Below, one piece after another: positions 16,975 through 60,647 of a stretch of 61,421 nt of DNA. The translations under genes and the position numbers were made by a program. The notes beneath the pieces were generated by a model. It made no database searches and had not been told where the DNA came from. It worked only from the letters and a program-made list of their open reading frames with translations. This DNA comes from Lachnospiraceae bacterium (GTDB lineage Bacteria > Bacillota > Clostridia > Lachnospirales > Lachnospiraceae): positions 1-61,421 of the forward strand of contig JAAWCJ010000004.1 in assembly GCA_022793195.1 (NCBI GenBank), written 5' to 3'. Position 1 is the stretch's first letter; each line of letters opens with the position of its first letter.

Positions 16975-17010
16975 GAGAGTTTTTCCTATTCATAAAAAAT
17001 ACTATTTTAT

Positions 17011-18404: not shown

Positions 18405-18425
18405 GTCCGAAAGAATTGAATAACT

Positions 18426-18592
18426 AAGGTAGAGGTCGCGTTTTTCATCAGTATTCCGGCTGATATGCACAGGCATAGAGGAGGACGGGAGAAAGGGGAA
18501 AGCGCCGAAGGGACGAATAGCCTGGATAGGAGTTCCTGGGCATATGGTGAAAAACCATATGACTGTCATCCAGCCGGATGGAGCGCTACTAA
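18426..18592 (+). ncRNA. Lysine riboswitch (L box)
   Basis: The conserved pieces appear in order: AGGTAGAGGTCGCG (18427-18440), the AAAGCGCCGAAGGGACGAAT core, a CTGGG element, a hairpin with CATATGGTGAAAAACCATAT, then GACTGTCATC and GGATGGAGCGCTACT closing the multi-helix junction. It precedes dapA-dapB of lysine synthesis and is followed by an intrinsic terminator at 18641. Lysine binding should therefore favour premature termination. Confidence 0.9.
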
Positions 18593-18640
18593 AAAGATTT
18601 TTCGGCATGTGTTTTTATATGGTGTCGTCATTGAATTTAG

Positions 18641-18667
18641 AGAGCTGACTTCCGGTCAGCTCTTTTT
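18641..18667 (+). terminator. Attenuator terminator of the lysine riboswitch
   Basis: AGAGCTGAC (18641-18649) pairs perfectly with GTCAGCTCT (18655-18663) around a TTCCG loop, followed by TTTT. Its T-tract is also the first arm of the repeated hairpin at 18663. Confidence 0.85.
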
Positions 18668-18715
18668 GTTGTATAGGGAACTTTGCTCCCCATACGACAA
18701 AAAGCCCTTCGGGGG
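18663..18715 (+). repeat. Post-attenuator hairpin repeat, copy 1
   Basis: TTTTTGTTGTATAGGGA pairs with TCCCCATACGACAAAAA through a stem of about 17 bp with G-U pairs, and is followed by GCCCTTCGGGGG, a UUCG-tetraloop hairpin. It begins on the T-tract of the lysine attenuator. Related copies are at 32010, 44866, 52366, 52663 and 60467, all on the same strand. Confidence 0.85.
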
Positions 18716-18764
18716 ATCAAAAGTTTTTTGTAAAATGTGTTATATTTTAGAAGGAGGAAAACAA

Positions 18765-30704: not shown

Positions 30705-30964
30705 TTTATGAATCGCCGTCAAATTTTACAAGAAGGTTCGTATCCGGTACTGACGCCCTGAATCTTGAAGTTCTAAAATGTTCTGATTTAGATAGCGTAA
30801 CCTCCTGCAACCGGCTTATAATCCGCCGTCCATGGCGGTATAAGCCTTTTTCGGACATCCTGTCCGAAAATTGCAATGTTTTTACAGAACATTAAGAACT
30901 TCTAATATTCAGGGCAAGGTACCGGATACGAACCTTCTGCAAAATTTGATGACACTTTCATAAA
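30705..30964. repeat. Inverted-repeat element 1 (260 bp), MITE-like
   Basis: Long imperfect arms run from 30705 to about 30782 and from about 30890 to 30964. Shared blocks include TTTATGAA, TCAAATTTT, AGAAGGTTCGTATCCGGTAC, GCCCTGAAT and ATGTTCTG. The centre holds a hairpin GGCTTATA/TATAAGCC with T5 (near 30811-30850) and TCGGACA/TGTCCGA. The ends match those of element 2 at 34696. It starts 9 bases after the purL stop and has no coding content. It could be a miniature transposon or a large 3' RNA structure. Confidence 0.8.
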
Positions 30965-31934: not shown

Positions 31935-32009
31935 AAAGAAAACTCCTTTCAGTCGTATCACGTTCTTTTTCGGGTATTATAACACATATTTTCCCGCATG
32001 TCCTCATAG

Positions 32010-32042
32010 TTTTTACCGTACAGATAAAAAGCCCTCCGGGGG
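32010..32042 (+). repeat. Post-attenuator hairpin repeat, shrunken copy
   Basis: TTTTTACCGTACAGATAAAAA is followed by GCCCTCCGGGGG. Compared with copies at 18663 and 60467, the loop and inner stem are deleted but the flanking T/A arms and the UNCG hairpin remain. It lies 29 bases before the Ca2+ ATPase start, and no terminator is evident before it. Confidence 0.65.
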
Positions 32043-32071
32043 TTTGGCAGTATGAAAACGGGAGGAATAAA

Positions 32072-44555: not shown

Positions 44556-44579
44556 GTAACAGAACTGAATAATTGAAAC

Positions 44580-44870
44580 CTGTGACGGAGAGAAGTATCC
44601 GGTATATGAACTTTCAGAGAGTCCCCGGTTGGTGTGAAGGGGACAGGGAATAGCTGGTGAATGGACTTCGGAGGGCGGACCGAAAGGCAAAAAGCGGAGA
44701 CTGTGATTGGTCATCTGCAGAGGGCCAAGTAGGGACCGACGGGCATCCCACCCGTTATCCACCGGGACGCGTATAGATGGTACGTGTAGCGAGAGGACGT
44801 ATGACGTCAATTTGGGTGGTATCGCAGAAGCAGAAGCTTTTGTCCCATGTGGGGACAGAGGCTTATTTTT
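44580..44870 (+). ncRNA. T-box leader, probably tryptophan-specific
   Basis: Stem I elements are visible: AGAGAGTCCCCGG, GGTGTGAAGGGGAC, then GAATGGACTTCGGAGGGC. The specifier is probably the TGG at 44662-44664. The T-box sequence TGGGTGGTATCGCA at 44813-44826 would pair with the tRNA 3' end, and the terminator follows at 44834. The operon encodes a TrpX-type transporter, which agrees with a Trp codon. Uncharged tRNA-Trp would allow readthrough. The specifier is assigned by eye, and another TGG occurs at 44655-44657. Confidence 0.85.
44834..44870 (+). terminator. T-box attenuator terminator
   Basis: AAGCTTTTGTCCC (44834-44846) pairs with GGGACAGAGGCTT (44852-44864), followed by ATTTTT. The T-run is reused as the first arm of the repeat at 44866. 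Confidence 0.85.
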
Positions 44871-44917
44871 GTTGTATGGGGAACGTAGTTTCCTGTAGAA
44901 CAAAAAGCCCTTCGGGG
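44866..44917 (+). repeat. Post-attenuator hairpin repeat, copy 2
   Basis: TTTTTGTTGTATGGGGAA faces TTTCCTGTAGAACAAAAA with some mismatches, and GCCCTTCGGGG follows. It begins on the T-tract of the T-box terminator, exactly as copy 1 does after the lysine riboswitch. Confidence 0.8.
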
Positions 44918-45000
44918 AAGATGCGCAAAAGTTTTCCGTTTTGGCGAGGCGGAAAGGCCATCTGCCGCCTGAAATTATATGGTATATGGAGGACATCAAA

Positions 45001-52186: not shown

Positions 52187-52309
52187 ATGCAGACAAATCG
52201 CAAAAGCACAATAGAACTGCTTTGTTGTTGTACGTTTGATTCCCGGGCTTGTTATATTATGGCTGGGTATATCTGCATGTCAGATTCCGTATCCAGGGCT
52301 GTCGGGTAG
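52187..52309 (+). CDS. Cys-codon leader peptide 1 (40 aa)
   Basis: The short frame begins MQTNRKSTIELLCCCTFDSR and contains three consecutive Cys codons (TGT TGT TGT) at residues 13-15 plus two more later. The site GAGGAGGAAAG is ideal. An intrinsic terminator lies 27 bases after the stop. This is the layout of ribosome-mediated attenuation, where stalling on Cys codons at low Cys-tRNA would alter RNA folding. The peptide itself need not have a function. It has no alternative homology that I can see. Confidence 0.65.
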   Translation: MQTNRKSTIELLCCCTFDSRACYIMAGYICMSDSVSRAVG

Positions 52310-52336
52310 AACGACGGCGACGTCATAGAAGAAACA

Positions 52337-52369
52337 GGACCGGGCGATTGGAAAATCCCCGGTCCTTTT
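52337..52369 (+). terminator. Attenuator terminator after leader 1
   Basis: GGACCGGG (52337-52344) pairs perfectly with CCCGGTCC (52358-52365), loop 13 nt, then TTTT. The T-run also begins the repeat copy at 52366. Confidence 0.85.
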
Positions 52370-52405
52370 ATCGTATGGGAAACTTCGTTTGCCCATACGA
52401 CAAAA
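52366..52405 (+). repeat. Post-attenuator hairpin repeat, copy 3
   Basis: TTTTATCGTATGGGAAAC pairs with GTTTGCCCATACGACAAAA around a TTC loop, with one bulged base. The UNCG mini-hairpin seen in other copies is missing. Confidence 0.85.
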
Positions 52406-52493
52406 CGGAGAATGTTGCCATGCGGCCCGCCCTGGCGCGGCAAATAGGGGAAGACGGCCCTTCCCTACTGAATTCGTACAAGGAGACAAAACC

Positions 52494-52607
52494 ATGAGAA
52501 ACTTTGATCATGTAACCGCAAAGAGAAGCTGTTGCTGTTGTTGTTTGATTCCCGGGCATTTTATGTGGTCAGGCGGCTTATGGTGTGCTTCTTTGAGGAA
52601 ACAGTGA
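52494..52607 (+). CDS. Cys-codon leader peptide 2 (37 aa)
   Basis: The frame begins MRNFDHVTAKRSCCCCCLIP and has five consecutive Cys codons at residues 13-17, with AAGGAGAC upstream. A terminator with an 11-bp stem follows 29 bases after the stop. The sequence TTTGATTCCCGGGC after the Cys run is identical to that of leader 1 but is read in another frame, so the RNA rather than the peptide is conserved. CCCGGGC can pair with the first arm of terminator 2. It is probably a second attenuator in series. Confidence 0.72.
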   Translation: MRNFDHVTAKRSCCCCCLIPGHFMWSGGLWCASLRKQ

Positions 52608-52636
52608 AGTGATACATAACAGGCTGATGGCTGACA

Positions 52637-52666
52637 GGCCCGGGAGCGAAAGCTTTCGGGCCTTTT
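52637..52666 (+). terminator. Attenuator terminator after leader 2
   Basis: GGCCCGGGAGC pairs with GCTTTCGGGCC (two G-U pairs) around a GAAA tetraloop, then TTTT. It is very stable. Confidence 0.9.
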
Positions 52667-52696
52667 GCTGTTGTATAGGACAAAAAGCCGCCGGGG
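52663..52696 (+). repeat. Post-attenuator hairpin repeat, shortened copy 4
   Basis: TTTTGCTGTTGTATAGG is followed directly by ACAAAAAGCCGCCGGGG. The second arm of the main stem is mostly deleted, but the order and the position on the terminator T-tract are kept. Confidence 0.65.
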
Positions 52697-58687: not shown

Positions 58688-59025
58688 ATTTAAGGAGGAA
58701 GAAAAATGGCAAATATTGATAAAGAATTAAAGGCAATCATGGATGCAGTATACGGGGAAGAGGTTCGCGGCTCCATCCACGACGCCCTGAAGGCGGGAAA
58801 TGATGAAATCAACCGGTACGGACTTCAGGAAAGTGCAAGGGTGGCGGCGGAACAGGCGCGGGCACAGGCAGAAAGCGCCAGGGCGACGGCGGAGAACGCC
58901 AGGGAAGCTGCGGAGCTTCTGCGGCAGCAGGGAGAAAGTGCCAGACAGCAGGCAACCCAGGCTGCAGTGACAGCAGCAGAAAATGCAGCTACTGCCGCCA
59001 ATACGGCGGCCGACCGGGCAAACGC
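58688..59025 (+). repeat. Fibre-anchor duplication, copy A
   Basis: This stretch, including the ATTTAAGGAGGAAGAAAA site, is nearly identical to 59450-59808. Copy B has extra codons (about 24 bases) in the helical part. It encodes the shared N-terminal anchor of the two tail fibres. Confidence 0.9.
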
Positions 59026-59449: not shown

Positions 59450-59808
59450 ATTTAAGGAGGAAGAAAAATGGCAAATATCGACAAAGAATTAAATGCAATC
59501 ATGGATGCGGTATACGGGGAAGAGGTTCGCGGCTCCATCCACGACGCCCTGAAGGCGGGAAACGATGAAATCAACCGGTACGGACTTCAGGAAAGTGCAA
59601 GAGTGGCGGCGGAACAGGCGCGGGCACAGGCAGAAAGCGCCAGGGCGACGGCGGAGAACGCCAGGGTAGGAGCAGAAAGTTCCAGGGAAGCGGCAGAGCT
59701 TCTGCGGCAGCAGGGAGAAACCTCCAGGCAGCAGGCGACCCAGGCGGCAGTGACAGCAGCGGAAAATGCAGCCACTGCAGCCAATACAGCGGCCGACCGG
59801 GCAAATGC
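59450..59808 (+). repeat. Fibre-anchor duplication, copy B
   Basis: This is the partner of 58688-59025, with matching ribosome binding site, anchor and coiled-coil code. The identity ends at GCAAATGC (59801-59808), where the tips diverge. Confidence 0.9.
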
Positions 59809-60390: not shown

Positions 60391-60470
60391 AACGAACAGA
60401 GGGCCATTACTGACACTTTAAAGGAAGATATACAAGTATCCTATTGTAATGATTTTCCTCTGTTCGTTTT
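60391..60470 (+). terminator. Large hairpin terminator between fibre B and the tape-measure gene
   Basis: AACGAACAGAGG (60391-60402) pairs perfectly with CCTCTGTTCGTT (60457-60468), enclosing inner pairings (ATTAC/GTAAT), and ends in TTTT. It ends the fibre transcript or attenuates the next gene. Confidence 0.75.
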
Positions 60471-60518
60471 ACCGTATAGGGAACTTGGTTCCCCATACGA
60501 CAAAAACCCTCCAGGGGG
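60467..60518 (+). repeat. Post-attenuator hairpin repeat, copy 5
   Basis: TTTTACCGTATAGGGAAC pairs with GTTCCCCATACGACAAAA around a short loop, followed by ACCCTCCAGGGGG. As at the other sites, it starts on the T-tract of a terminator. A tiny frame (MILRTALAL) after GGGGAGAAG at 60539 may be a leader. Confidence 0.85.
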
Positions 60519-60647
60519 TCGCACTGCAGGGGAGAAGAATGATCTTGCGTACTGCATTGGCATTATAGAGGCCCCCAACAGTATGGCATACAGCCCTTGG
60601 AGAAGGACTATAAACACTACTATTTTATAATGTGAGGAAAAATACAT

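Follow-up and report, generated by a model that had tools for sequence, protein, structure and literature searches.

Short hairpin-rich repeats on predicted terminator T-tracts of Lachnospiraceae and other Clostridia, a likely mobile element

The genome of a Lachnospiraceae bacterium carries many copies of a short, hairpin-rich repeat that begins on the T-tracts of predicted terminators, and which is likely to be mobile, inserting in one direction behind a hairpin and its run of T's. It was recognised in a window of 61,421 nucleotides, contig C3 of the source genome (G000; 2.69 Mb, 57 contigs, 90% complete), where a first-pass annotation had described a recurring hairpin on attenuator U-tracts and had suggested, as one of three interpretations, a mobile element drawn to terminators. 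The terminator association, the existence of empty sites and a left boundary shared among the copies support that suggestion. Since neither of the two enzyme families searched for, Y1 transposase and group II maturase, was found in the source genome, the word "mobile" rests here on distribution, sequence homogeneity and empty sites.

Copies were searched with a covariance model (R1) made from 30 element copies, none of them from the window, at E up to 0.1 in the source genome and up to 0.01 in 200 genomes of the family Lachnospiraceae (at most 28 candidates scored per genome). The R2 search of 291 genomes of the class Clostridia used E up to 0.0001 and at most 18 scored candidates per genome. 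Terminators are throughout predictions from folding, and the scans used (a simple one on positions 1-60000 of the window and a self-made one) are too unspecific to count terminators.

Copies of the element in the window

R1 recovers the annotated hairpin at 18662-18716, 44865-44919, 52364-52412 and 60465-60519, and the shrunken copy noted near 32010 as a weak match at 32009-32043 (E 0.0014); for each copy found, plus is the better-scoring strand, as annotated. The copy claimed at 52663 is present by sequence, as a deletion remnant out of the reach of R1. The features are as follows.

18422-18596, plus strand: lysine riboswitch aptamer upstream of dapA, given as context (Rfam RF00168, 104 bits)
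18639-18665, plus strand: predicted intrinsic terminator of the lysine riboswitch, on whose T-tract the element starts (terminator scan)
18663-18703, plus strand: element copy 1, hairpin H1, formed by a T-tract arm and an A-tract arm (R1, 57.8 bits)
18705-18713, plus strand: element copy 1, mini-hairpin H2, CCC-TTC-GGG (by sequence)
32009-32043, plus strand: shrunken copy with an internal deletion (R1, 20.9 bits)
44573-44850, plus strand: T-box leader ahead of the gene for a TrpX-like ABC substrate-binding protein, given as context (Rfam RF00230)
44866-44917, plus strand: element copy 2, H1 at 44866-44906 and H2 at 44907-44917, on the T-tract of the T-box terminator (R1, 44.9 bits)
52366-52405, plus strand: element copy 3, which consists of H1 alone and sits on the terminator that follows the first Cys-rich leader ORF (R1, 45.4 bits)
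52663-52696, plus strand: element copy 4, a remnant left by deletion, on the terminator that follows the second Cys-rich leader ORF (by sequence)
60467-60519, plus strand: element copy 5, H1 and H2 (R1, 60.2 bits)

Rfam confirmed both the lysine riboswitch and the T-box named in the first-pass annotation. The gene downstream of the riboswitch is dapA (TIGR00674 match), and the TrpX-like gene matches NF041285 with 156 bits, under its cut-off of 390, and also PF04392. The predicted fold of 18641-18668 has -14.6 kcal/mol and that of 18663-18716 has -22.1 (z -3.6), the hairpin upstream of copy 3 has -20.2 kcal/mol, and the terminator scan places the terminator under copy 4 at 52636-52663. Placement on a terminator T-tract, as annotated, holds for the copies after the lysine riboswitch, the T-box and both cysteine leaders and not for those at 60467 and 32010, where no compact hairpin is predicted (dG 0). 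Copy 5 is followed by a stretch which by eye resembles the beginning of the B-type body described below. Copies within genes would have spoken against the first-pass annotation; in the window, none of the six copies falls within the nine nearest long ORFs checked. The syntenic region of a relative, G009, has a match at copy 2 (L191:5226-5279) and a match similar to the shrunken copy (L190:13849-13883).

Short ORFs with runs of Cys codons were seen by eye ahead of 52366 and 52663, where cysteine leaders had been annotated. They are consecutive (about 52187-52310 and about 52494-52610), behind each of them come a strong predicted terminator and a copy of the element, and they look like cysteine attenuator peptides. 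Elsewhere in the window, two 227-base stretches within or beside consecutive ORFs (58688-58914 and 59450-59676) are 96% identical, probably through a tandem gene duplication.

Anatomy, abundance and spread of the repeat

In H1 the T-tract is followed by a lower stem (ATCGTAT/ATACGAC in the source genome), the conserved motif AGGAAA...TTYCCT, a short loop and an A-tract. H2 is CCCTCCGGGGG, and the tail is also seen in other copies; in longer copies it is followed by a bulged stem (H3) and a terminator-like hairpin with its own T-tract (H4). By their bodies, 13 of the source genome's copies are A-type and 13 B-type, and several are truncated, with a common left boundary at the T-tract, and the flanks of closely similar dispersed copies are unrelated. 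In class C, a further form, H1 encloses either fold-back arms or an entire TwoAYGGAY unit. Copies also occur in tandem, the second starting on the T-tract of the first (C25:67638/67764, C56:76172/76297, C38:105662/105791 and C13:68430/68553). Element bodies span about 40-165 nt, with no room seen for a transposase gene. Unlike a MITE, the element has no terminal inverted repeats by eye: in A and B bodies, H1 forms the first end and H4, of different sequence, the other.

With up to two mismatches, CCCATACGACAAAAA matches the source genome 97 times, against 22 for a reversed-pattern control, and a 29-base core matches 29 times against none; the core is present in 6 of the 11 genomes of the genus, the source genome included. 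The 117 R1 matches, many of them both strands of one palindrome, collapse to 69 places, of which 68 were used in the tests below. The annotation of all copies to the plus strand applies to the window only; genome-wide, 38 lie on plus and 31 on minus contig strands. A rough, self-made ORF finder, on whose gene context no claim rests, reports an ORF across 23 of the 68 copies, among them two copies in the window whose position is between recognised genes, which makes a genome-wide count of gene placement uninformative.

The element was found by R1 in 97 of the 200 Lachnospiraceae genomes, its own included, and by R2 in 33 of the 291 genomes of the class, 27 of which lie outside Lachnospiraceae and are spread across 11 other families. 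All five other-family loci inspected have a T-tract/ATAGGAAA palindrome, two of them with a clear upstream terminator (by eye). A B-type body is carried by one Roseburia plasmid record in the plasmid collection, and portions of an A-type copy, covering 27-50% of the query, by seven unannotated faecal "Bacteriophage sp." records in the phage collection. No Rfam family covers the element in the window or 100 scanned loci at the gathering score, or in seven loci at E up to 1, and no description of it was found among the matches listed in the open-access literature surveyed.

Terminators, stem covariation and empty sites

When a hairpin of -10 kcal/mol or better ending at the T-tract is taken as the criterion, 47 of 68 copies in the source genome have one, compared with 48 of 400 sampled other T-runs at the same loci; the remaining 21 copies lack a hairpin of that strength. 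A foreign set of 69 element copies from 32 other genera, all scanned with Rfam at the gathering score, gave 64 of 69 copies against 233 of 1509 control T-runs in a similar test. The test is not circular, since R1 includes the T-tract and not the upstream hairpin. Beyond attenuators, the occupied sites comprise ordinary terminators, terminators after tRNA genes and TwoAYGGAY hairpins.

Covariation of the stem, the lack of which would have told against the first-pass annotation, was found for H1 in alignments A2 and A3 and in a swap test. In A2, 8 of 17 pairs are changed on both sides, values that none of 500 shuffles reaches. In A3 (24 sequences, 18 genomes), 10 of 18 pairs are changed on both sides; columns 10/36 show all four Watson-Crick types, and double-change cells number 58 against 16.5 in shuffles, while further pair types in A3 are not above shuffles (444 of 500 as high). 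The lower stem, compared across 29 of 32 genomes, has 22 distinct 7-mers and is perfectly paired in 26 of the 29. Mean pairing in the swap test was 6.76 of 7, against 4.67 for swapped partners, with none of 10000 permutations as good; the low value of G184 reflects misregistration. Within the sequences compared, this covariation shows that the H1 dyad is kept, and would be compatible with pairing as DNA or as RNA. Where cells of H1 depart from Watson-Crick pairing, A-C predominates on the terminator strand, equivalent to G-T wobbles on the opposite strand; A-C and G-T cells on the terminator strand number 65 vs. 12 in A2 and 28 vs. 6 in A3. Because the copies are related, this excess is only a hint that the strand opposite the terminator strand may be the one that folds.

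The leader between the lysine riboswitch and dapA exists in both states. The element is present in G000, G009 and G005; in G002, G003 and G004 no more than a few tens of bases separate the T-tract from the ribosome site, with no element, and five other genomes have other sequence there. At about position 17000, G009 has a copy that is lacking in the otherwise alignable window. Its junctions, read by eye, are CTATTTTA|TCGCATAG and TTTGTTC|TATTGTAG, with no duplication visible in this one case, where T-rich ends leave the exact boundary ambiguous; about 75 further bases beside the insertion are also lacking in the window. At about 26800, the window and G009 have different remnants (by eye). In the source genome, 14 copies of TwoAYGGAY are uninterrupted, compared with two that are interrupted by the element at the hairpin T-tract (the latter by eye). 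TwoAYGGAY (RF01731), described as a structured RNA motif, is itself a dispersed fold-back repeat in this genome, at 30753-30917 on the minus strand of the window and at 13 other places, and its window copy is missing from the syntenic region of G009.

A mechanism can be proposed in which a trans-acting enzyme would recognise the H1 hairpin, probably as DNA, and place the element at targets made of a hairpin and a T-tract. Terminators may serve the element as a safe harbour, because the host terminator would remain intact and the insert would be transcribed for the most part through readthrough. Once inserted, a copy that has an H4 and a T-tract of its own would in turn offer a new target, which would give rise to the tandem copies seen.

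Attenuator leaders and alternative explanations

The enrichment after attenuators, on which the first-pass annotation depended, was found among the foreign loci as well as at the source genome's own T-boxes. At the 69 foreign loci, 10 of 12 Rfam matches to riboswitches or leaders precede the element on its strand. Nine of these (seven T-boxes, a NiCo and a TPP riboswitch) lie no more than 55 nt away and the tenth, a cobalamin riboswitch, lies at 138 nt; a THF riboswitch and an S10 leader make up the rest of the 12. The binomial p for the excess is 0.00009 to 0.003, depending on the choice of control, and the excess may be overstated since the control T-runs include false terminators. In the source genome, four of seven T-boxes are followed by the element (p 0.018 to 0.0006, assuming 400 to 1000 terminators in that genome). 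All four are among the five T-boxes over the Rfam cut-off, and three of the four copies have the class C form. Some copies in attenuator leaders lack H4, those of the window included, and others have it. H4-bearing copies stand between a T-box and proS (L124), leuS (L241, partial gene) and pheS (L116), and the copy ahead of valS (L213, partial gene) has no H4. The presence of a full element with H4 between a T-box and proS or leuS is not accounted for by a pure parasite.

One explanation of these leaders, unlikely on balance, is a cis-acting RNA module that is retained because it serves a function in readthrough mRNA, where H1 would re-pair the U-tract after readthrough and act as a processing site, a 5' stabiliser or an antitermination signal for attenuated genes. 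Besides the excess at T-boxes and riboswitches, it would fit the retention of the dapA copy in three species (G000, G009 and G005), which could mean a function, the folding of H1 better than nearly all of its shuffles (1 of 200 as good for the window copy, 0 of 200 for L124), the T-box copies upstream of TrpX-like genes in both G000 and G200 (both genes under the family cut-off), and the retention of H4 in 6 of 10 attenuator copies (by eye) despite a gene downstream. Against such a module, the element is found at ordinary terminators too, as well as behind tRNA genes and within copies of TwoAYGGAY; moreover, the dapA leader of three relatives and three of the seven own T-boxes are without it, and the copies in the window are truncated in differing ways.

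It is also conceivable, though improbable, that a Y1 (HUH) transposase moves the element, which would then be non-autonomous, REP/PATE-like and related to IS200/IS605. The hairpins near both ends, the lack of a visible target duplication and the single orientation behind a T-rich target agree with this, and like REP/RAYT systems the element is an extragenic palindrome with many copies per genome. REPs have a GTAG foot, however, and neither A2 nor A3 has one at the start of H1, which begins on a T-tract instead. Y1 transposases, present in 115 of the 200 genomes, gave no match in the source genome (90% complete), and their presence is not associated with that of the element across the 200 (Fisher p 0.25 for genomes with one or more copies, 1.0 for ten or more). 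Y1 was therefore rejected as the mobiliser, as copy number, counted up to 28 per genome, did not track it. No insertion sequence with H1-like ends was seen by eye among the half copies listed.

A remnant or satellite of group IIC introns is more remote, and we regard it as highly improbable. According to excerpts of three papers, these introns insert at the DNA motif of intrinsic terminators, behind the stem-loop (PMC4424553, PMC10190682, PMC7923331), which one of them describes as recognised in DNA form (PMC10190682); in the portion available of PMC4424553 the target class is the same as that of the element, which likewise lies directly behind terminator-like stem-loops. Unlike these introns, the element has only about 40-165 nt, its first hairpin is built from the T-tract, no group II intron RNA was matched in seven loci at E up to 1, and the longer copies have so far proved to be without any intron domain. 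The group II maturase (GIIM), present in 68 of the 200 genomes, had no match in the source genome (90% complete). Tried as the mobiliser, it was rejected on that ground and on copy number, which did not follow it over the 200 genomes with at most 28 copies counted in each (Fisher p 0.55 for one or more copies, 0.53 for ten or more).

Chance palindromes or ordinary bidirectional terminators, which the frequency of T-tracts and A-tracts near terminators might suggest, were rejected in view of the common core with no control matches, the reversed-pattern control and the covariation.

A mobile repeat docking on terminators is retained as the likely explanation. A bolder extension of it, improbable as matters stand, is a class-wide terminator-docking system with a lower stem rewritten in each lineage, whose copies would act as portable second-stage switches: the H1-H3 RNA would decide on passage through H4 after readthrough of the first terminator, so that an insertion would add a control step, with H4 bypassed by antitermination encoded in the element.

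We place the element among small interspersed palindromic elements, outside any named family, and it looks like a terminator-targeting repeat. The nearest kinds, as far as the excerpted sources describe them, are the BOX, RUP and SPRITE repeats of pneumococcus and the "mobile attenuators". The former are structured interspersed repeats of small size, with one BOX found between two T-boxes, and SPRITE is terminator-like with AAAA/TTTT ends (excerpts of PMC3049150). In contrast to the element, docking on existing terminator T-tracts is not mentioned in the available description of these repeats (PMC3049150). "Mobile attenuators" similarly link mobile elements with attenuation but, in the excerpted account, bring the terminator themselves (PMC2965389), whereas the element described here follows a terminator which occurs without the element as well. 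TwoAYGGAY RNA (RF01731) resembles the element in being a dispersed fold-back repeat of the same genome, and it or similar arms occur inside H1 of class C; it differs in sequence, and acts as both target and cargo of the element.

If this interpretation is correct, an abundant element of Lachnospiraceae and other Clostridia, undescribed in searchable papers, lands on the commonest transcription stop signal. It would account for a structure seen repeatedly in T-box and riboswitch leaders and complicate the annotation of terminators and attenuators. It would also raise the questions of which enzyme reads a rapidly rewritten hairpin and how synthetase genes are expressed behind an inserted terminator, e.g. 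proS behind the H4 of L124.

Two minor observations concern sequences adjoining or within the copies. Upstream of several copies without a clear terminator (L027, L066, L167 and L008) lies an AT-rich sequence ending in a TTTTGCAAC(A/C)GCCCC-like motif, which may be a second dispersed repeat. At L144 and L229, from different genera, a similar insert ending in CTCAGCAAC was seen by eye inside H3, which suggests another nested element.
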